Positions 1,510-15,869 of a stretch of DNA of 16,183 nt are shown piece after piece. Within the stretch, counting starts at the first letter, position 1; the number at the start of each line of letters is the position of its first letter. Under the pieces are notes generated by a model. It was not told the origin of the DNA. It searched no databases and was given only the letters and a program-made list of their open reading frames with translations. Source of the stretch: Rhodobacterales bacterium UBA3089 (GTDB lineage: Bacteria; Pseudomonadota; Alphaproteobacteria; Rhodobacterales; Rhodobacteraceae); assembly GCA_002367255.1 (NCBI GenBank), contig DFBD01000087.1, positions 5,852 through 22,034 of the forward strand. The letters are read 5' to 3'. The position numbers were made by a program, and so were the translations under genes.

Positions 1510-2637
1510 TCAATTAAGTGCGGCGACGACCTCAGCGCGACGCGCCATCCACGCTTTGGAAAAGTCTTCCTCGGCCAGTCCGGCGTTAGCGTCGAGGAAC
1601 TCGGCCCACGCGCTTACCAGCGCATCCATGCGCGCGGTGCGTTTCACGTTCCACGCTTCATCCTCATCGGTCCAGATGCCGATCTCGCGCAGATAGCGCA
1701 CGGCACCCTCATGGAACGGTACATCAATCGCCGGACGGCCCGACCGATCCAACGACCAGCGGGTCATTGTCGCCGTGCCATTTTTATAGAGGTCATAGGT
1801 TTCATCCAAAGCCTTGATGAAAGCATAGACCTCGTCGGCGGATTTTTCGTTCGTCGTCGTGATCACGGGATAGCGATAGGCGGCCATCTTTGCGGTTTCA
1901 CCTTCGGGCAAGCCTGCGGCCACATCTTCATCCGAGGGGCTCATGATAGGCAACACCTCGAGCAGCTTGTCCCAGCCCTCTTTGTTGTCTGGCTCAAGTG
2001 GCGCATAAAAAATGCCGCGCGGGCTTTCGGCCAGCTCATAGAGGTGGCTTGTTGTTGGTGTTGTGCAGGTCGCGTCAGACTCGTTGCGCGTCATCGAGGA
2101 CATCGCCGCGCCATAGGTCGGGAACATGACGACCTCAACATCATCAAGGGTCAGACCACCAAACGCGAGGATCGCTTCGCATTTTACATTCACCGACGGG
2201 TTGCCCGCCACAAAAGCGATCCGCTTTCCCCTCGCATCCGCAACGGTTTTGATCCCTGCGTCACCCGCAGCGACCAGCGTGATACCCGCAGGACGCCCGG
2301 CAACAGCGCGCAACTGGCGCGGACCCCAATCTGCTGTGGCAAAATCATACGCGCCTTCGCCAAGAAAGAAGGCTTCGGTCGCCAGAAACGCGTAATCGGC
2401 ACGTCCTTGCAGCAACGGCTGCAAACGACCAATGCCGCTGCCCGAAGGCTGAATCCGAACGCGCGTGCCAAACGACTTCCCAAAGGCGTCCGCGATGGCC
2501 GACGCTTCGGCATAGCCAGCCGAGCCGACATCATACGAGGTCCATACCATCGTTTCCGGCAGCTCCTGGCTGATTGCCGGCAATGCAACACAGGTTGCCA
2601 ACACGCCCAGTGCAGACCGCAAGTTGAAATATTTCAT
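1510..2637 (-). CDS. TAXI-family TRAP transporter solute-binding protein
   Basis: Periplasmic receptor that delivers substrate to the fused TRAP permease encoded downstream. About 375 residues, slightly longer than the family's usual 320-350. It begins with a signal peptide: MKYF, a basic residue, then a hydrophobic stretch ending in ALPAIS before the mature ELPETMVW. The early motif GSAGYAEASAIADAF, the PSGSGIGRLQPLLQGRADYAF region and the YRYPVITTTNEKSADEVYAF region are arranged as in TAXI proteins (TRAP-associated extracytoplasmic immunogenic). Two ATG codons are adjacent (2640 and 2637). The ribosome site AGGGAGG ends 3 nt from the first and 6 nt from the second, which favours 2637. The LysR gene is divergent, 197 nt away, and probably regulates it. 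The substrate is unknown. Confidence 0.93.
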   Translation of the reverse strand: MKYFNLRSALGVLATCVALPAISQELPETMVWTSYDVGSAGYAEASAIADAFGKSFGTRVRIQPSGSGIGRLQPLLQGRADYAFLATEAFFLGEGAYDFATADWGPRQLRAVAGRPAGITLVAAGDAGIKTVADARGKRIAFVAGNPSVNVKCEAILAFGGLTLDDVEVVMFPTYGAAMSSMTRNESDATCTTPTTSHLYELAESPRGIFYAPLEPDNKEGWDKLLEVLPIMSPSDEDVAAGLPEGETAKMAAYRYPVITTTNEKSADEVYAFIKALDETYDLYKNGTATMTRWSLDRSGRPAIDVPFHEGAVRYLREIGIWTDEDEAWNVKRTARMDALVSAWAEFLDANAGLAEEDFSKAWMARRAEVVAALN

Positions 2638-2756
2638 CATTTTCCTCCCTAATGCGAAGACCCGAACCTTTGCACCACTCCTGCCGTCCGGGTTTTGCCC
2701 GATACAGCAGATTTACCAGCGCTAAAGCCTATCAATACGACAAGCAGGCGAGCCTC

Positions 2757-2771
2757 CATTCGAATGATCAT
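2757..2771. promoter_or_regulatory. Overlapping palindromes in the divergent LysR/TAXI promoter region
   Basis: CATTCGAATG (2757-2766) is a perfect 10-bp palindrome and overlaps ATGATCAT (2764-2771), a perfect 8-bp one. Both lie between the two divergent genes, about 65-120 nt from each start. A regulatory role is suggested by position only. Confidence 0.25.
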
Positions 2772-2794
2772 GAGATACTTGTTCACATAGCACA

Positions 2795-2811
2795 AATGCA
2801 TTATGCGCATT
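2795..2811. promoter_or_regulatory. Candidate LysR-type operator (T-N11-A)
   Basis: AATGC (2795-2799) and GCATT (2807-2811) are inverted arms around 7 nt and contain the T-N11-A pattern (T2797, A2809) typical of LysR-type regulator sites. It lies 23-40 nt upstream of the LysR start, where an autoregulatory site that also acts on the divergent TAXI gene would be expected. Short motifs of this kind also arise by chance. Confidence 0.4.
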
Positions 2812-2834
2812 ACAGAAATAGAAAATGGGTATAT

Positions 2835-3755
2835 ATGGAAGTCCGCCTTCTCAGTAATTTCAGCGTGATTGTCGAACTGAGCAGCATAACAGCTGCGGCG
2901 GAGCGCCTTAGTATTGCCCAACCCGCCTTAAGCCGTCAGGTTAAAATTCTGGAAAAGGAATTTGGTGTCCCGCTGCTTCATCGACATGGGCGGGGTGTCA
3001 CGCCGACAGAGGAGGGCTTACGGCTTGTTTCCCGTGCAAAGCTGATCCTGGAAGATATGAAAAACCTTCAGACCGATGTGAAGGGCGATCCCAAATCGCT
3101 GTCTGGCACGCTCACGCTTGGACTACCGCCTACTGTTGCCGAAGTCTTGGCCACCCATCTCATTATACGCACCATGGAGAAATTTCCGGACGTCAATCTG
3201 CGGATCGTCTCCGGCTTCAGCGGCCATGTGCAGGAATGGCTGACCCGTGGAAAAATTGATCTGGGCGTTGCGTATGAAGGGCAGAAATCAAAATTCATTA
3301 AGTCACGGCCAATTCTTCTGGAAAATCTCTTCCTGATTCAGCCCGCCCAGCCCACCTGTGACGACATGCCGATCACCGCCCAAGACGCCCTGCGTCAGCC
3401 GCTGATCTTGCCAAATTCGGAACACGGCCTGCGCAGCAGGATTGAACACATCGCCCAAACTGCCAAGATCGACCTGAACGTCGTTCTTGAAGTCGACATT
3501 CTGCCGACAATGCTGTCATGCGTCGATCGCGGATTGGGGAGTACCATCCTGCCTTTGGTCAGCGTCATTCATCATATCCGTTCGGGACAATTAGTCGCCC
3601 GCCCGATTGTGCGGCACCCGATCGACCGAACGCTGGTTCTGATGACCCCCCTCAACCGTCCGATCTCCCGGTTGTCGGAAAAATTTTCAGAGTTTATGAT
3701 TTCAGAAGTCCATCATCTGGTGAGCTCGGGCGAGTGGTCCGGCACGACGCTATAG
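2835..3755 (+). CDS. LysR-type transcriptional regulator
   Basis: DNA-binding regulator of 306 residues, the usual LysR length. Residues 1-60 form the winged helix-turn-helix: MEVRLLSNFSVIVE, then ITAAAERLSIAQPALSRQ and LEKEFGVPLLHR, closely following the family pattern. The effector-binding domain begins near residue 92 (GTLTLGLPPTVAE) and continues to the end. The frame is open back to 2652, but the upstream codons do not look like LysR sequence, and the ATG at 2835 gives the canonical N-terminus; the ribosome site is weak. The gene is divergent from the TAXI/TRAP genes, the standard arrangement for a LysR regulator and its target. The co-inducer is probably the transported compound or a metabolite of it, by inference. 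Confidence 0.93.
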   Translation: MEVRLLSNFSVIVELSSITAAAERLSIAQPALSRQVKILEKEFGVPLLHRHGRGVTPTEEGLRLVSRAKLILEDMKNLQTDVKGDPKSLSGTLTLGLPPTVAEVLATHLIIRTMEKFPDVNLRIVSGFSGHVQEWLTRGKIDLGVAYEGQKSKFIKSRPILLENLFLIQPAQPTCDDMPITAQDALRQPLILPNSEHGLRSRIEHIAQTAKIDLNVVLEVDILPTMLSCVDRGLGSTILPLVSVIHHIRSGQLVARPIVRHPIDRTLVLMTPLNRPISRLSEKFSEFMISEVHHLVSSGEWSGTTL

Positions 3756-3936: not shown

Positions 3937-5370
3937 TCAGATCGCACCGCTAAGCATCAATCCCATCAATAACGCGCCCCAGAACAGCAGCAATACTGCG
4001 CAATAGGTGCCGTTCCAAACTGGCCCTATCAGCCCGGCCGGTCGATCAATGATCGACGCGCACAGTGCGATCGTCGTGATGAAAGGCGACAGGCCGATGA
4101 CGGCCGTCCAGCCGCCAATGATTGCGAGCGCGATGGTCAGGTCATTCAGGCCAGGCAGCGCCAATTGCGAGGCAATGGCACCGAACACCGATGCGGTCAC
4201 GATCGGGTTCACGCCGACAAAGGCCAAAACCACGACGGACATCATAAGCCCCAGCGCCAATGTAACCGGCCCAAGGGATAAATCCGAGAAAAAGTCCCGC
4301 AATCCATCCACAGGAATGATGGCGATCAAAACCACGGACAGGAACCCTGCGGCCGCGAACACGCCCACCTCACCCGCCGTGGCAGGCATCCGGCGCCAGC
4401 TGTCCAGGAGTGTCGCATTGATTGTCTTCCATGGCCCGCCCGTTAATTTTCGCGACGATAGCGCTGACCAGAAGATCGCGTAGCATGGCGCTAGCACCAG
4501 CAGGGATTCCTGAAATGTCAGTGGCGACACTTCGTGCATGATGACAATCGACAAACCCAATATCACCACATGCCCCACCAATAGCGCCGCCCCTCTCCAG
4601 CTGGTCACCTGTGGCCGCCGCCCTGTCACGGCTCGCTGCGACAGTCGCCGGTTCTGCACACGATCAAGGCTCCAACCAATCGCAATGAAGACAAAACTTA
4701 TGGCAAACCCGAATGGTCCGAAGTCAAAATAGGACAGGCTGGGCAATGTAATGAGCACAACATTTGTGGCAAACCCAAATGGCGACCAAAGCGAGATCAG
4801 ACTGAACCCCCGGATAATGGCAAGCGTCATCCGGCGTAACCTTGCCTCCTGCAAATCAGGGGGCAACTGCATCGTTGACGGCTCCGCGAGCGCGCGTTTG
4901 GCCAGATCAAGCAGAATGACCAAGCCGCCAAAGTTGATCAGGACCCCGAATAAATGCCCACCAAACGACAGCGCCAGATAGCGCCGTGAGGGCGGTTGCC
5001 CTGTCAAATAGACACCTGCCTCGCCGACTTCTGGCGCCATCATCGCTGCGGATCGCAGCGTGCCCAGAAGAATGATCAGGGCCCCCAAGAACAATGAGCG
5101 CCCTATTGCATCCATCAAGACCTCTGAGGGAATATCACGCCAGAGCGCGACAATCAGCGCGCAGACGGACAACAGCACGGCAACCCAGGTGGCGATGCTG
5201 AACAGGCGCCAGCCAAGCGCCAGGAATAGGCCCAATGCCATCCCTGCCGTGAGAATAAGCCACGGTGCGTCCACAAAAATCAGCCCGACGGCAGCGGCCA
5301 AAACAAACGTCAGCAGACCGCTGCGCAACCGGCGGACACCGCCATTGACTGGGGTTGGGGCTCCTGGCAT
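3937..5370 (-). CDS. Unrecognised multi-pass membrane transporter (ion-transporter-superfamily-like)
   Basis: Integral membrane protein of 477 residues with roughly ten to twelve hydrophobic segments. I do not recognise the exact family. Two halves each carry a re-entrant-loop-like stretch: SLWSPFGFATNVV (about 193-205) and AFVGVNPIVTASVFGA (about 383-398), the second followed by GLSPFITTIAL (426-436). Paired NP or SP loops in an inverted-repeat layout are typical of the ion transporter (IT) superfamily of carboxylate carriers, so a carboxylate importer or exporter is plausible but unproven. The frame is open to 5493, but the upstream part overlaps the crotonase gene in another frame. The ATG at 5370 is 7 nt after the crotonase stop, with GAGAG upstream, and is the likely start. 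It is the last gene of the operon and probably moves the pathway substrate or product. Confidence 0.75.
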   Translation of the reverse strand: MPGAPTPVNGGVRRLRSGLLTFVLAAAVGLIFVDAPWLILTAGMALGLFLALGWRLFSIATWVAVLLSVCALIVALWRDIPSEVLMDAIGRSLFLGALIILLGTLRSAAMMAPEVGEAGVYLTGQPPSRRYLALSFGGHLFGVLINFGGLVILLDLAKRALAEPSTMQLPPDLQEARLRRMTLAIIRGFSLISLWSPFGFATNVVLITLPSLSYFDFGPFGFAISFVFIAIGWSLDRVQNRRLSQRAVTGRRPQVTSWRGAALLVGHVVILGLSIVIMHEVSPLTFQESLLVLAPCYAIFWSALSSRKLTGGPWKTINATLLDSWRRMPATAGEVGVFAAAGFLSVVLIAIIPVDGLRDFFSDLSLGPVTLALGLMMSVVVLAFVGVNPIVTASVFGAIASQLALPGLNDLTIALAIIGGWTAVIGLSPFITTIALCASIIDRPAGLIGPVWNGTYCAVLLLFWGALLMGLMLSGAI

Positions 5371-5377
5371 CCGACTC

Positions 5378-6139
5378 TCAACACCCTTTGAAATGGGGCG
5401 TGCGTTTCTCGAAAAACGCGGATCTTCCTTCGGCAGCATCAGCACTGTTAAGCAATATCGGCTGAAGCTGGCGTTCATATTCAAGCGCGGCATCCACGTC
5501 GCGGGCGAACCAGTCGGCGATGTACTGTCGTGGCAAAGGGGCTACTTCTGCTTCTTCCAGCGCCAGTGCACAGGCCATTTCCACCGCCTGCCCTTCGTCA
5601 GCAAGCGCGTCAACAAGACCGCTGGCAAGCGCTTCATCAGCCGTGATCTTGCGATTGCTCATGATGATCCTGCGTGCTTTTGCGGGTCCAACCCGTGCGG
5701 GTAACGTGGCAAGTAAACCCATGTCGGGGATCACACCGACCCTGGTGAAACCCGCCACAAACATCGCGCCCCGCGAGGCAACAACCAGCGGGCAAGCCAT
5801 CGCCAGCCCAAAGCCGGCCCCCGCCGCCCAACCTTCGACCGCCACCACCAGAGGTTTGGGAAACCGAACCATTCGTCCGATCATGTCCTTCACCGTGGCA
5901 AAGCGTTCCCGCTGTTGGGCAATGCTACACATACCCTGGTCGCGGATATCACCCCCGGACGAAAAATGACCACCCTTCCCCGTTAATACCACGGCGCGCA
6001 CGTCAACATCTCTCTCGGCTTGTGACAGGATCTGAACCAGTTCCTGACGCACCGGATGACCCACCGGGTTGCGGCGGCCCGGCTCGTTCAGGCTGATCAC
6101 CAGCAGACCGCCACCGCGTGTTTCGAGATCAATAGACAT
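5378..6139 (-). CDS. Enoyl-CoA hydratase/isomerase (crotonase) family protein
   Basis: Crotonase-fold enzyme of 253 residues acting on an acyl-CoA in the cytoplasm. The first oxyanion-hole segment is HFSSGGD (58-64) and the second is EGWAAGAGFGLAMAC (102-116). The helix after it reads VGVIPDMGLLATLPARVG (134-151), the PD...LP pattern of PaaG-like and isomerase-type members. Neither catalytic glutamate of classical enoyl-CoA hydratase (rat Glu144 and Glu164) is present: by my alignment these positions are Gly111 and Phe131, while Asp139 is available as an acid/base. An isomerase, hydrolase or related reaction is therefore more likely than simple hydration. The start overlaps the MaoC stop by 1 nt (TGATG), indicating coupled translation; the permease follows 7 nt after its stop. 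Confidence 0.9.
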   Translation of the reverse strand: MSIDLETRGGGLLVISLNEPGRRNPVGHPVRQELVQILSQAERDVDVRAVVLTGKGGHFSSGGDIRDQGMCSIAQQRERFATVKDMIGRMVRFPKPLVVAVEGWAAGAGFGLAMACPLVVASRGAMFVAGFTRVGVIPDMGLLATLPARVGPAKARRIIMSNRKITADEALASGLVDALADEGQAVEMACALALEEAEVAPLPRQYIADWFARDVDAALEYERQLQPILLNSADAAEGRSAFFEKRTPHFKGC

Positions 6140-9106: not shown

Positions 9107-10257
9107 AGTGTGGCCTCCGATCCAAGGATTGCCGTGCACTGGCTGGACAGGGTGCCCCCATTGCCGTGACATAACGCAAGGTCGCAATTCTCAATTTGGC
9201 GCTCGCCGGTCCCGCCACGGATTTGCGCCACGGCCTCTGCAATCAAGAACAAGCCGTACATGCCCGGATGGACGCAGGACAACCCGCCGCCATTGGTGTT
9301 GACCGCCAGTTCTCCGCCCGGTGCGATGCGCCCGTCCTCGACAAACGCGCCGCCCTCGCCTTTGGCACAAAACCCCAGATCTTCGAGGAACAGGATCGTG
9401 TTGATCGTGAACGCATCATAGAGCATCACCAGATCAAGATCCTTGCGCGTGATGCCAGCCATTTCCAATGCTCTGGGGCCACTATCGGCCGCAGCCGTGG
9501 TCGCCAGATCAGGCATGGCAACAATAGAGCGGTGATAGTTCGCAGCCCCAGCACCCAGAAAATATACCGGCTTGGCATGGAGATCCTTCGCGCGGTCCGC
9601 GCGGGTCAGAACACAGGCCGCAGCACCGTCCGTCACGAGGCAGCAATCTGCCTTGGTCAACGGGTCTGAAATCATGCGCGACGACAGAATTTCGTCTTTT
9701 GTCAGAGGGCCGCGCGCAAAAGCGTCGGGATTGAGGTTTGCCCAGCCCCGCGCCGCCAGCGCCACATCGGCCAACTGTTCGCGGGTCGTGCCATAGGCAT
9801 GCATGTGCCTGCTGGCCGCAAGACCATAAGCGGTGATCGGGTGGCGCGGATTATAGGGCGTTTCGTGCCACTGCGGTTCGCTCATCGAGACAAGCCGCCC
9901 ACCCGCCGTCCGCTGGTTCGATCCATAGCAAACCAGCGCCGCATCACACAGCCCCGCCTCAAGCGCGAGGGTTGCCTGAAGCAAGTGCAGCTCGAAGCTG
10001 GACCCGCCCACATTGGTGCTGTCGAAATAGCGAGGCCTTAGGCCCAGATGCTCCACCACGCTCATTGTTGGAAAAGCGTGCGCGCTGGTCGCGGCAAAAA
10101 CGCCGTCAATATCCTGCATTCGCAGGCCAGCATCCGCAACGGCCGCAACGGCCGCCTGACCCAGCAGCTCCATCGCCGAAAACCCGGGGGCCTCGCCTAT
10201 GCCGGCTGTCGCCATGCCCACAATTGCGGATTTTCCGCGAATATCTTGCGCGCTCAT
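9103..10257 (-). CDS. Thiolase-fold protein lacking the nucleophilic cysteine (SCP-x/Ltp2-like)
   Basis: Member of the SCP-2/lipid-transfer thiolase group, 384 residues. The C-terminal half carries the group's hallmarks: YDAFTINTILFLEDLGFC (280-297), then NTNGGGLSCVHPG (320-332) with His330 retained, and CHGNGGTLSSQ near the end. Where ordinary thiolases have the acyl-accepting cysteine, this protein reads NVGGSSFEL (82-90): my alignment puts Gly85 at the cysteine position. Proteins of this kind that sit next to a DUF35 gene include the steroid side-chain aldolase Ltp2 (with ChsH2) and the BbsAB pair of benzylsuccinate degradation, where C-C bond cleavage occurs in a two-protein complex. Here the DUF35 gene is immediately upstream with an ATGA overlap. 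A retro-aldol or CoA-dependent cleavage at the end of the pathway is the best inference. Confidence 0.9.
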   Translation of the reverse strand: MSAQDIRGKSAIVGMATAGIGEAPGFSAMELLGQAAVAAVADAGLRMQDIDGVFAATSAHAFPTMSVVEHLGLRPRYFDSTNVGGSSFELHLLQATLALEAGLCDAALVCYGSNQRTAGGRLVSMSEPQWHETPYNPRHPITAYGLAASRHMHAYGTTREQLADVALAARGWANLNPDAFARGPLTKDEILSSRMISDPLTKADCCLVTDGAAACVLTRADRAKDLHAKPVYFLGAGAANYHRSIVAMPDLATTAAADSGPRALEMAGITRKDLDLVMLYDAFTINTILFLEDLGFCAKGEGGAFVEDGRIAPGGELAVNTNGGGLSCVHPGMYGLFLIAEAVAQIRGGTGERQIENCDLALCHGNGGTLSSQCTAILGSEATL

Positions 10258-11662: not shown

Positions 11663-12964
11663 TTACTTCGACAGCCCATCAAGAAGCAGTTTTTGCAGAA
11701 TTTCCACAAGTTCGGCCAAAGAGATATTCCCCTCTAGCCCTGCCTTTTTTGGATCAAACCATTCAACGGTCCAGTTCAATGCGCCCAACATGACCTGCCT
11801 TAAGGGGACGATCCTGATATCGGAACGCAAACAACCAGAGTCCTGCGCATCTTTCAGGATGTGGTCCCAAAGCTGTGCATATTCATGGCGCACAGGCCAA
11901 TGGCGAGCACCCACATCACTGGGCAGTTGTCCATAGATTCGAATATTCGCCGAAGTGAATTCACTGGCCTGAAACAGACACTCCATATGGGTCTCGATCG
12001 CTGCAGATATTCTGCTCAGGTCGTCAGGAAACTTTTCCCGATCAGAAACGGTCCTGGCCACACCCTCCAACAGATCGCGCAGCCCCAAATCCAGCACTTC
12101 ATCCAAAATGTCCTCTTTTGACCCGAAATGGTAGTAGATGCTGCCGGCCTCGATCCCAGCCTCGGTCGAAATGGCCCGCATTGTTGCCGCTTTATAGCCA
12201 CGGTCTCGGATGATCCGCGCGGCCGCCGATAGCACTTGCATACGGGTACGTGCTGCCTTGTTGGTATCGGCTTTCGGTTCAATAATCTGCCGGTCGCCAT
12301 GCCGGGGGACAAGAACCAGAGCGTGCTCTTTTGTGGCCATCCCATCCAGCAACAGCTTTGTAACGCGCTCGGACAGTGTTGCGACGGGAAAACGCTCCGC
12401 GTCATACCATTCAACCGTCCAGTTAAGCGCGCCGAGCACGAACTGGCGTACAGGTCTGATCGCGATATCGGTGCGAACACAGCCATTCTGCTGGGCTTCA
12501 GCCAAAAAATCGTTCCACAGGTCGGAATATGCGCGTCGCAGCGGCCGGTGTTTTTGGCGTAACTCTTCGGATAGCGTCGGAAAGTTGCGAATATTGGCGG
12601 ATGTAAAATCGCTTTCAGACAAAAGAAAGGTCAGGTGTGTATCGACCATCTCTGACAGGACCTGTCGGAAATCCTTGCCCTGCGCCTTAGCCTCGGCCAG
12701 AACCCGCGACGCCTCGACATAAAGGCGGCGCAACCCAAGCTCCAGAACCTCACCCAGAATGTCTTCTTTGGACGAAAAGTGGTAGTAGATGCTGCCGGCT
12801 TCCATATTTGCAACTTTGGCGATCTTGCGCATGGTCGCGGCATTGTACCCTTCCTTGCGGAAAAACTGTGCGGCCGCTGCGAGGATCGTCTCTCGCGTCT
12901 GCTCGGACTTACTTGGCTGTCCGTCATGCAGCACAGCGTTTTGGGATTTGGGCGTCATATTCAT
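11663..12964 (-). CDS. Tandem (double) TetR-family regulator, KstR2-like halves
   Basis: Transcriptional regulator of 433 residues, about twice the normal TetR length, because it contains two complete TetR units. Unit 1 covers about 19-212 and unit 2 about 236-433, joined by a linker of about 20 residues. The helix-turn-helix cores (ATMR...EAGSIYYHF.SKEDIL.EVL.LGLR) lie at 43-80 and 260-297 and share 28 of 38 residues. The ligand domains also match: FTSANIR occurs twice, as do LGALNWTVEW and KLLLDG. The GALNWTVEWYD region recalls the KstR2-type C-terminal domain, whose members bind CoA thioesters of ring or side-chain intermediates. The start at 12964 has AGAGG 9 nt upstream; an ATG at 12958 is possible. 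The gene lies between the operon and the divergent SDR gene and probably represses one or both. Confidence 0.93.
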   Translation of the reverse strand: MNMTPKSQNAVLHDGQPSKSEQTRETILAAAAQFFRKEGYNAATMRKIAKVANMEAGSIYYHFSSKEDILGEVLELGLRRLYVEASRVLAEAKAQGKDFRQVLSEMVDTHLTFLLSESDFTSANIRNFPTLSEELRQKHRPLRRAYSDLWNDFLAEAQQNGCVRTDIAIRPVRQFVLGALNWTVEWYDAERFPVATLSERVTKLLLDGMATKEHALVLVPRHGDRQIIEPKADTNKAARTRMQVLSAAARIIRDRGYKAATMRAISTEAGIEAGSIYYHFGSKEDILDEVLDLGLRDLLEGVARTVSDREKFPDDLSRISAAIETHMECLFQASEFTSANIRIYGQLPSDVGARHWPVRHEYAQLWDHILKDAQDSGCLRSDIRIVPLRQVMLGALNWTVEWFDPKKAGLEGNISLAELVEILQKLLLDGLSK

Positions 12965-13008
12965 GGGTAAATACCTCTGGACACACCGATATCAAGCGGA
13001 TAAATTCA

Positions 13009-13018
13009 AACAGATGTT
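13009..13018. promoter_or_regulatory. Candidate operator between TetR and SDR genes
   Basis: AACA/TGTT arms around two bases lie at the centre of a looser AT-rich symmetry (AAAT at 13002-13005, ATTT at 13021-13024). The site is 45 nt before the TetR start and 53 nt before the SDR start, a fitting place for autoregulation. It does not resemble the palindrome at 11507-11520, which weakens the case that one protein domain binds both. Confidence 0.25.
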
Positions 13019-13070
13019 AGATTTTAGCCCGTGCACAACCAAACAGCAAGGGCCCAGGAGGAGTTTCAGG

Positions 13071-13832
13071 ATGCGTGGACTGCAAGGCAAAAGAGTGATC
13101 GTCACAGGTGGCGGCAGCGGAATCGGACGCGAAGTGTGCAAGCGTTTCGCCGAAGAAGGGTCCGAAGTTGCGGTGTTTGATCTCAATGCGGAAGGCGCTG
13201 CCGAAACAGTATCACTTATCGAGGCGAATGGCGGGAAGGCCAGCGCCCACACGGTTGATATTGCGGATCGCGCTGCTGTCGATGCTGCCGTCGCGGCGTT
13301 TGAAGCGGGTGGCCCTGTTGATGTTCTGGTCAACAATGCGGGTTGGGATCTTATCAAACCCTTCCTCGATACCGACATGGATCTGTGGAAGAAAGTGATC
13401 GACATCAACCTTTATGGCCCGCTGAACATGCATCACGCGGTCCTGCCAGGTATGGTCAAGAACGGCGGTGGTCGCGTGGTGAACATCAGTTCGGATGCCG
13501 GTCGTGTCGGATCATCGGGCGAGGCGGTTTATTCTGCCTGCAAAGGTGGCATCATTTCCTTCACCAAGACTGTAGCCCGCGAGCTTGCGCGCAAGGGAAT
13601 CCAGTTGAACGCCGTTGCACCCGGACCAACCGACACGCCGCTTTTTGCCGAAGTGGCCAAGGGTGAGGCGGGCGAAAAGATCGCCGAAGGTCTGAAGCGG
13701 GCCATTCCAATGAAGCGGCTGGGTCAGCCCACCGATTATCCGGGCATCATTTGCTTCCTTTCGTCAGATGACGCCGGGTTCATCACAGGTCAGGTCATTT
13801 CCGTATCCGGGGGCCTGTCGATGCACGGCTAG
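13071..13832 (+). CDS. Short-chain dehydrogenase, BadH-like (2-hydroxycyclohexanecarboxyl-CoA dehydrogenase type)
   Basis: NAD-dependent SDR of 253 residues. The cofactor motif TGGGSGIG is at 12-19, and Asp37 at the end of the second strand (VFDLN) favours NAD over NADP. NNAG is at 88-91, and the catalytic set is Ser141, Tyr154 and Lys158 with Asn112. Long stretches (MRGL start, LVNNAGWD, NMHHAVLPGMV, GRVGSSGEAVYSACKGG, SDDAGFITGQV) read like BadH of Rhodopseudomonas palustris as I recall it, which oxidises 2-hydroxycyclohexanecarboxyl-CoA in alicyclic acid degradation. General 3-hydroxyacyl-CoA dehydrogenation is an equally acceptable description. GGAGGAG lies 8 nt before the ATG, which fixes the start; the frame is open further upstream inside tetR, but that is not coding. 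It is the only alcohol dehydrogenase in the window for the hydrated intermediate. Confidence 0.92.
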   Translation: MRGLQGKRVIVTGGGSGIGREVCKRFAEEGSEVAVFDLNAEGAAETVSLIEANGGKASAHTVDIADRAAVDAAVAAFEAGGPVDVLVNNAGWDLIKPFLDTDMDLWKKVIDINLYGPLNMHHAVLPGMVKNGGGRVVNISSDAGRVGSSGEAVYSACKGGIISFTKTVARELARKGIQLNAVAPGPTDTPLFAEVAKGEAGEKIAEGLKRAIPMKRLGQPTDYPGIICFLSSDDAGFITGQVISVSGGLSMHG

Positions 13833-13931: not shown

Positions 13932-15869
13932 ATGTTTGATCCCGCCGATGATATCCGTAAAAACAGCAATCTCACCGGTTTTCAGAACCATTGCGGCGCG
14001 GATACATACGAAGACCTGCTTGAACGGTCCAACGCCAACCCCGATTGGTTTTGGTCTCAGATTATTGATCTTGCCGGCATCCGGTTCTCGCATCCCTTTC
14101 ATACACTGCGTGACATCACCGACGGTCCCGAGAATATCCGCTGGGCCACCGGTGCCACGCTTAACCTGACACAAACATGTCTCGACGCACGAATTGACCT
14201 TGGACTTGGCGGCAAGACCGCGATTGACTGGGTGGCCGAAGACGGAACCACCCGCTGTTGGAGCTACACCGATCTGGCCGGGCACAGCGCCCGTGTCGCC
14301 AGCGCTCTGGCCGCCCGGGGCATCGGCGCGGGCGATGCGGTTGGCATCTATATGCCAATGATCCCTGAAATTGCGGCCGCGTTTCTGGGCATTGCCCGGC
14401 TGGGAGCCATTGCTGTGCCGTTGTTTTCCGGTTTTTCCGCTCCCGCAATCACCGCACGGCTGAGCGACAGCAACGCCCGGGCGGTGCTGACAGTTGATGC
14501 GTCACCGCGCCGGGGCAAGCCGGTGGAGATGGAGCGGACATTAATCAGCGCGATTGACGACCTTCCGTTGGTGCAAACTGTCATCAGCCTGCGCCGATAC
14601 GGGGGAACATCCGCCGATCCGGCCCGCGATCTGGATTGGCATGACACAATGGCAGCGGCCGATCCGACCTTCCCCGCCGCCCCCCTAGACGCCGCCGATC
14701 CATTGATGATCGCCTATACTTCGGGCACAACCGGCCAGCCCAAAGGTGTGGTACACACGCATCTGGGGGTTCAGGCCAAAGCAACGACTGACTTCCTTCT
14801 GTGTCTCGACCTTCAGCGCGATGACCGGCATCTGTGGATGACAGATATGGGCTGGGTGATGGGGCCGCTGACGCTGATTTCGGTTCTTCTGGCTGGTGCT
14901 ACGCTGGTGCTTGCCGAAGGTGCCCCGTCAACGCCAGACGACCCGTTTCGCCTGTTGCGCGTTGCCGCCGAAAAGCAGGTGACCCACATGGGCGTGGCAC
15001 CCACGCTGGTGCGCCAGTTTATGGTCCAGGACCCTGCCCCGCTGGCCGGATACGACCTGTCGCCACTGCGTATCGTCGGATCAACCGGAGAGCCCTGGAC
15101 CGACGATGCCTGGCTATGGCAACTGGCGCATATCTGCCGCCACCGCGCCGCGCCGTTGAACATTTCCGGTGGCACCGAATTGTTCGGCGCGATCCTGACC
15201 TCAACGGTGTTGCACCGCTTGTCGCCGGGCGGGTTCTCGACGCAAGCGTTGGGGGTTGGCGCCAAGGTTCTGCGCCCGGATGGGTCAGAGGCTGATTTGG
15301 GCGAGGTCGGTGAGTTGGTGGTGACCCACCCCCCCATGGGGCTGACGCCGACAATCTGGCAGGACAAGGCGCGGTATCTGGAAACCTATTGGTCCACCTT
15401 CCCCGGCGTCTGGTGTCACGGCGACTGGGTGCGTCACGATGCTGATGGCACATGGTATATTCTGGGCCGGTCCGATGACACTCTCAACATCGCCGGAAAA
15501 CGCATCGGTCCGCCCGAAATCGAGGCGGCCATGACCCTGACCGGCAAAGTCATCGACGCCGCCGCCATCGCTGCGCCAGATGCGTTGAAAGGTGTCGCCG
15601 TTGTCGTTGTCTGCGTCGCAGCCCCCGGCGTGACCCCCGGCGCGGCATTGGTCGACTTTCTGAAAGACGCAGTCGGCACCGCGGTCTCAAAACCGTTCCG
15701 CCCGCGCGAAATTCATTTCGTCGAGGCCTTGCCAAAGACCCGAACGACGAAAACCATGCGCCGCATTGTCCGGGCGGCATTTTTGGGCGAGGATCCGGGT
15801 GACCTGTCATCGGTGCAGAACCCGGAAACCATCGCCCCCATCGAAACCTTGCAAGGAACACAGACATGA
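13932..15869 (+). CDS. AMP-forming acyl-CoA synthetase (acetyl/acetoacetyl-CoA synthetase-like)
   Basis: ANL-superfamily ligase of 645 residues that activates a carboxylic acid through an acyl-adenylate. An acetyl-CoA-synthetase-type N-terminal region (about 25-90, with WFWSQIIDLAGIRF) precedes the core. Key motifs are the P-loop YTSGTTGQPKG (262-272), ISGGTE (411-416), HGDWV with Asp498, the hinge GRSDDTLNIAGKRIGPPEIE (512-531), and the C-terminal catalytic Lys607 in KTRTTKTMRR, where the usual acetyl-CoA synthetase text is TRSGK. The N-terminal region points to the Acs/PrpE/acetoacetyl-CoA synthetase branch rather than the long-chain ligases. The ribosome site is modest (AGG 6 nt before the ATG). 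The stop overlaps the next gene as ATGA. Because a strong terminator ends 13 nt upstream, how the gene is expressed is not obvious. Confidence 0.92.
   Translation: MFDPADDIRKNSNLTGFQNHCGADTYEDLLERSNANPDWFWSQIIDLAGIRFSHPFHTLRDITDGPENIRWATGATLNLTQTCLDARIDLGLGGKTAIDWVAEDGTTRCWSYTDLAGHSARVASALAARGIGAGDAVGIYMPMIPEIAAAFLGIARLGAIAVPLFSGFSAPAITARLSDSNARAVLTVDASPRRGKPVEMERTLISAIDDLPLVQTVISLRRYGGTSADPARDLDWHDTMAAADPTFPAAPLDAADPLMIAYTSGTTGQPKGVVHTHLGVQAKATTDFLLCLDLQRDDRHLWMTDMGWVMGPLTLISVLLAGATLVLAEGAPSTPDDPFRLLRVAAEKQVTHMGVAPTLVRQFMVQDPAPLAGYDLSPLRIVGSTGEPWTDDAWLWQLAHICRHRAAPLNISGGTELFGAILTSTVLHRLSPGGFSTQALGVGAKVLRPDGSEADLGEVGELVVTHPPMGLTPTIWQDKARYLETYWSTFPGVWCHGDWVRHDADGTWYILGRSDDTLNIAGKRIGPPEIEAAMTLTGKVIDAAAIAAPDALKGVAVVVVCVAAPGVTPGAALVDFLKDAVGTAVSKPFRPREIHFVEALPKTRTTKTMRRIVRAAFLGEDPGDLSSVQNPETIAPIETLQGTQT

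Follow-up and report, generated by a model that had tools for sequence, protein, structure and literature searches.

The window, that is, the whole stretch of 16,183 nucleotides analysed from Rhodobacterales bacterium UBA3089 (a marine bacterium whose genome comprises 281 contigs and is 72% complete), carries on its minus strand a gene for a double TetR repressor of 433 amino acids (11663..12964). The assignment rests on a reading frame open from ATG to stop, on Pfam, on the relatives of the protein and on a structure model, and GAGG is found 9 bases 5' of the ATG. As stated in the initial annotation, two complete TetR units are present in one polypeptide, in which Pfam recognizes TetR_N twice and TetR_C_24 twice. 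TetR_N reaches a total of 114 bits over its two stretches against a cut-off of 24, and the helix-turn-helices (HTHs) taken singly score 64.4 and 62.7 bits against the same cut-off in the genome search. On the minus strand, with coordinates converted from residue numbers, the N-terminal unit (about residues 18-212) occupies 12329..12913 with its TetR_N HTH at about 12761-12901, and the C-terminal unit (about residues 233-432) occupies 11669..12268 with its TetR_N HTH at about 12095-12232. The linker between them (residues 210-235; 12260..12337, minus strand) is modelled with low confidence, and its length is 24-33 residues in 97 relatives. TetR_N above the cut-off together with an all-helical C-terminal ligand domain places the protein in the TetR family, and it has the two complete TFR units per chain of the Mce3R-type architecture. 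The ScbR-type profile NF041196 is matched at 161.4 bits versus 150, a score which is the sum of two matched stretches on a 191-position profile.

Divergent from the repressor gene, with a gap of 106 bp between the two starts, lies a gene for a BadH-like SDR dehydrogenase (13071..13832, plus strand), followed by a gene for an AMP-forming acyl-CoA ligase (13932..15869, plus strand); both are predicted targets of the repressor. The SDR scores 367 bits, below the BadH equivalog cut-off of 431 (TIGR03206), and the ligase is acetate/acetoacetate--CoA ligase-like, below the cut-offs of those enzymes. This part of the neighbourhood is shared by the relatives, the SDR being divergent from the double TetR gene in 74 of the 76 loci that extend far enough, with the ligase coming next after the SDR in 61 of 67. 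The shared neighbourhood asked about in the initial annotation does not extend to the other neighbours in the window; when its nine remaining proteins were used as queries, a match at ≥60% identity was obtained for the thiolase alone, and in a single locus out of 80. Control by the double TetR of the minus-strand thioesterase-OB-thiolase-ACD-MaoC-ECH genes of the window is not supported, as the palindrome described below has one place in the window at ≤3 mismatches. Close to the minus-strand acyl-CoA operon, a gene for a TAXI-type TRAP solute-binding protein is divergent from that of a LysR regulator (1510-3755). A hydrophobic ORF of 518 amino acids (3937-5493) has no Pfam match at E 0.001; its annotated start overlaps an enoyl-CoA hydratase ORF (5378-6139), and translation hence probably begins at a more internal position.

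The two halves of the repressor are 47% identical (93/199 residues; BLASTP, E 5e-64); their DNA-binding regions agree at 61% and their ligand regions at 45%. The HTH core shares 28 of 38 residues by hand count on the BLASTP alignment of the halves, and the 20 bases at 12129-12148 are identical to those at 12780-12799, 651 bp apart, within the recognition-helix codons; both observations of the initial annotation are thereby reproduced. The recognition-helix residues are the same in the N and C units of at least 87 of 97 proteins, and HTH residues outside this helix differ between the halves, for example K47 versus A264.

A protein search, in which 7996 candidates were scored, found 443 relatives at E ≤1e-3, and among the 120 listed 119 are 400-486 amino acids long and one is 298. 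A search for proteins of about this length had been suggested in the initial annotation. A GTDB genome scan gave 378 relatives, and the 80 best loci among them were used. The fused frame is present in all 80, complete in 78 and truncated by contig ends in two (L019 and L029), and a stop or frameshift between the units, the first doubt raised about the fusion, occurs in none of them. Since all 80 related loci carry the fused frame, the fusion is not an artefact, and sequencing error or frameshift as its origin is excluded. Within the genus, the double TetR is found in 4 of 13 genomes; a phylum-wide search of 398 genomes, weak on absence with four candidates scored per genome, found only the window's own. 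Several assemblies, all of them MAGs, hold two or three double TetR loci each (L013/L037, L014/L076, L015/L059/L082 and L016/L029), which are either paralogues or mixed bins. In Sulfitobacter, the double TetR of L009 is directly followed on its downstream side by a single TetR with TetR_C_24 (9492-10145), and similar single units likewise lie 3' of it in L011, L017, L020 and L021.

A second doubt was that the C unit might be translated separately from an internal start. Such additional translation is highly improbable. Codon 209 is an ATG with a weak purine-rich stretch 5' of it, which leaves room for minor internal initiation, but it sits in a conserved LLLDGM helix end, and because the C unit repeats this helix end the conservation of the codon needs no start function. 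Codons 242 and 262 have no Shine-Dalgarno-like stretch upstream, and internal initiation within the gene looks poor on these signals.

A maximum-likelihood tree was built from 26 N-halves, 26 C-halves and 46 single TetRs (from 112 listed of suitable length). Twenty-five N-halves form one clade and 25 C-halves another, each supported at 100/99, and the two clades are sisters with a support of only 70/90. The separation of the halves into two clades points to one old in-frame duplication, of the kind proposed initially, from which the alphaproteobacterial double TetR family stems. The 26th protein, P0099 (401 amino acids), also has two full units, and both its halves group among single TetRs. 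A single origin of all double proteins is rejected with P0099 included (AU p 0.0016), and a constraint that groups its N-half alone with the remaining N-halves survives (p 0.21). By this tree, there is at least one further TetR doubling, that of P0099, apart from the main family.

Prediction of the full chain, as advised in the initial annotation, gave a confident single-chain AlphaFold model (pTM 0.86, mean pLDDT 88), and in this monomer model the N unit is packed against the C unit. The first PDB match of the model is Mce3R, which spans both halves and is the only listed match with more than 200 aligned residues. Many TetR structures match one unit of the model, such as the solved FadR, AibR and KstR2, which have one unit per chain and dimerise; in the PDB listing FadR is found with stearoyl-CoA and AibR with isovaleryl-CoA. 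Judging from the model, both units of one chain probably pack as one TetR-like dimer. The built-in pseudo-dimer of the initial annotation thus gains credit from the confident model and the Mce3R match across both halves, but it belongs to a kind already known.

The gap between the divergent genes contains a predicted operator palindrome, TCTAACAnnTGTTNGA in the window (TCTAACATCTGTTTGA on the minus strand), at 13006-13021 with A/T flanks extending to 13004-13023. A total of 76 intergenic gaps was compared, from 75 loci and the window (in the five remaining loci no SDR match could be used), of which 53 are distinct. The pattern TCNAAC[AG]nn[TC]GTTNGA is found in 52 of the 53, the sole exception being a decayed copy (L081), and the commonest core is the perfect palindrome TCTAACAnnTGTTAGA. 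The palindrome stands upstream of the double TetR gene in 78 of 79 loci, L029 being left out as it has no upstream sequence. A sigma-70-like promoter candidate for the SDR gene (12978..13006, plus strand) abuts the operator; it has 9 of 12 consensus matches, and this match (one observed versus 0.1 expected in shuffles) is a consensus match only.

The initial annotation had further suggested that the two units differ in their half-site preference and read an asymmetric operator, a mode of binding that is described for Mce3R. This reading is contradicted, because the recognition helices are the same and the gap holds a palindrome, and it is now very improbable. In its favour, one half-site is imperfect (TGTTTGA or TGTTCGA) in the window as well as in close orthologues, the HTHs differ outside the recognition helix as noted above, and the conservation of the gap continues beyond the palindrome on one side, that of the repressor gene. 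The one-sided conservation is read as promoter and ribosome-site sequence, and could hold an asymmetric contact. However, the commonest core is fully symmetric, and the further sites in the seven genomes described below have, by eye, only the palindrome and its A/T flanks in common.

The association of the palindrome with the protein was also observed across genomes. In a family sample of 198 genomes, a double TetR was called at E ≤1e-60, with up to eight candidates scored per genome, in seven. The exact pattern TCTAACANNTGTTNGA is found in 7/7 double-TetR genomes versus 7/191 others (Fisher 1.6e-9), and in 6/7 versus 7/191 when the site beside the gene is not counted (Fisher 1.5e-7), figures to be read with the small genome samples in mind and with the pattern drawn from the same loci family as that tested. 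Only the genome of the window, incomplete at the figure given above, has the double TetR but no second exact site. A reversed control pattern is present in 8 of the 198, all of them outside the seven. Among the 13 genomes of the genus the strict symmetric pattern is found in G012, which has the protein, and in none of the 12 others.

The palindrome could instead be the site of another regulator, with the double TetR binding elsewhere. In two of the seven genomes with the pattern and without the double TetR (L092 and L111, both at 1501-1516), a TetR of another kind, with TetR_C_33, adjoins the perfect palindrome TCTAACATATGTTAGA and faces a divergent gene across it, in L092 one of HlyD type; another TetR type may thus use the same operator. 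As an account of the double TetR loci themselves this is quite improbable, since the palindrome lies in the upstream region of the double TetR gene itself and co-occurs with the protein at the genome level. In one more of the seven exceptions (L105), the site adjoins relatives of the acyl-CoA dehydrogenase and hydratase of the regulon described next.

Twenty-five sites were examined in the seven double-TetR genomes (5, 5, 4, 4, 4, 2 and 1 per genome), one of which is the site beside the repressor gene. All 25 have a relative of acyl-CoA catabolism proteins nearby, within 70 bp in 16 cases. An AliB-like acyl-CoA dehydrogenase (524 versus the cut-off of 575 for the cyclohexanecarboxylate enzyme) is found at five sites, an OB-fold protein opposite a CaiB CoA-transferase at six (C100:3488 in the genome of the window among them) and an AtuA/hydratase/acyl-CoA dehydrogenase set at four, with SDR or CaiB at others. 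Five sites have the 3' side of a CaiB gene as their nearest match, and in L123, as at a comparable site in L094, a transglutaminase-like ORF is the gene that begins there; owing to these positions and ORFs they are weaker cases. The reference proteins came from the window and from two of the seven genomes (G189 and G072), and hence the other genomes are the fairer test of the regulon. The SDR and the AliB-like protein both score below what is required of cyclohexanecarboxylate enzymes, and the biotin carboxylase, HMG-CoA-lyase-like and AtuA-like proteins that adjoin sites in G189 would be compatible with a branched or isoprenoid acid as substrate too. The window's genome has the exact pattern only once; with one mismatch there are two further places (C100 and C70) versus three control matches, and so no enrichment in this genome alone. 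The C100 place adjoins CaiB and OB-fold/thiolase genes, and the C70 place a transposase gene.

Five of the seven double-TetR genomes have 4-5 further sites besides the gene's own, several of them on one contig. Such an arrangement would suit a chain-swapped or higher assembly, with N-N' and C-C' pairing or with single-chain dimers associated with each other, in which four HTHs would bind or loop two operators; Mce3R is described as a homodimer of single-chain units joined via helix 15, for which looping is suggested (PMC11667970). Further association of chains in the double TetR is nevertheless unlikely, as the monomer model packs N on C with the confidence given above, and two HTHs suffice for one palindrome of 16-20 bp per promoter.

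The double TetR is likely to be a natural single-chain TetR dimer that represses its own gene and an acyl-CoA degradation regulon through the palindrome. The N and C units would pair within the chain as the protomers of a TetR dimer do, and one chain would offer two HTHs with the same recognition helix; with a symmetric operator, these two could do the work of the two HTHs of a homodimer. The protein would bind TCTAACAnnTGTTNGA in the gap that separates its gene from the divergent SDR-ligase operon and, as both share one site, would repress both. In the relatives, it would repress further acyl-CoA catabolism operons bearing the same site. The likely inducer would be an acyl-CoA of the pathway (or the free acid), as suggested by the target genes and by the acyl-CoA ligands of the solved relatives FadR and AibR. 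A tentative, rather doubtful extension is that the DNA-binding halves are kept alike by the palindromic operator and the ligand domains have diverged so as to sense two different acyl-CoAs, giving a two-input decision at several promoters. If true, duplication and fusion would be a route to a second input that leaves the operator of a symmetric repressor unchanged. Other candidate gains from fusion include a high effective concentration and freedom from cross-dimerisation with the cell's remaining TetRs.

Double TFRs as a class are well recognised, if infrequent. Mce3R of Mycobacterium tuberculosis (PDB 9b7y) is described as the first double-TFR structure, with an asymmetric operator, in a paper that cites 204 predicted double TFRs in actinomycetes (PMC11667970). 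A similar joined repressor is thus already known from another bacterial group, and the present case is a well-supported variant. The units of Mce3R are reported to come from distinct TetR subgroups (PMC11667970), whereas the halves here are similar and fall in neighbouring clades, and the predicted site here is palindromic. The sequence match is also non-collinear, the N unit here matching the second Mce3R unit (residues 220-347), and orthology with Mce3R is rejected on these three grounds. AtuR/RdmA of Pseudomonas are described as TetR repressors that control acyl-CoA type catabolic clusters and use inverted-repeat operators (PMC9973270), and AtuA-like genes occur in the predicted regulon of the double TetR; unlike the latter, RdmA is given as a single unit of 206 amino acids with the operator AGCAAGCGCTTGG (PMC9973270). 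Likewise, BadR of Rhodopseudomonas and Aromatoleum is reported to repress BadH and AliB type genes with a CoA-thioester effector, but it belongs to the MarR family and its operator is CAATnnATTG (PMC9795900). AtuR and BadR were hence rejected as namesakes. Literature searches, with most subscription journals outside their scope, found no paper on the alphaproteobacterial family, and among the matches listed for double, tandem, duplicated or fused TetR only the Mce3R work and the engineered sc-rtTA concern two TetR units per chain. In the single-chain Tet transactivators (sc-rtTA), two linked TetR units likewise act as a dimer, engineered from Tn10 TetR for activation (PMC1797012), whereas the double TetR is natural and has its own predicted operator; it is a natural counterpart of these engineered switches. 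The present case adds an alphaproteobacterial double TetR family of separate origin, with a palindromic predicted operator and a predicted regulon, and hence a double TetR that keeps its symmetry can be compared with one, Mce3R, that has lost it.
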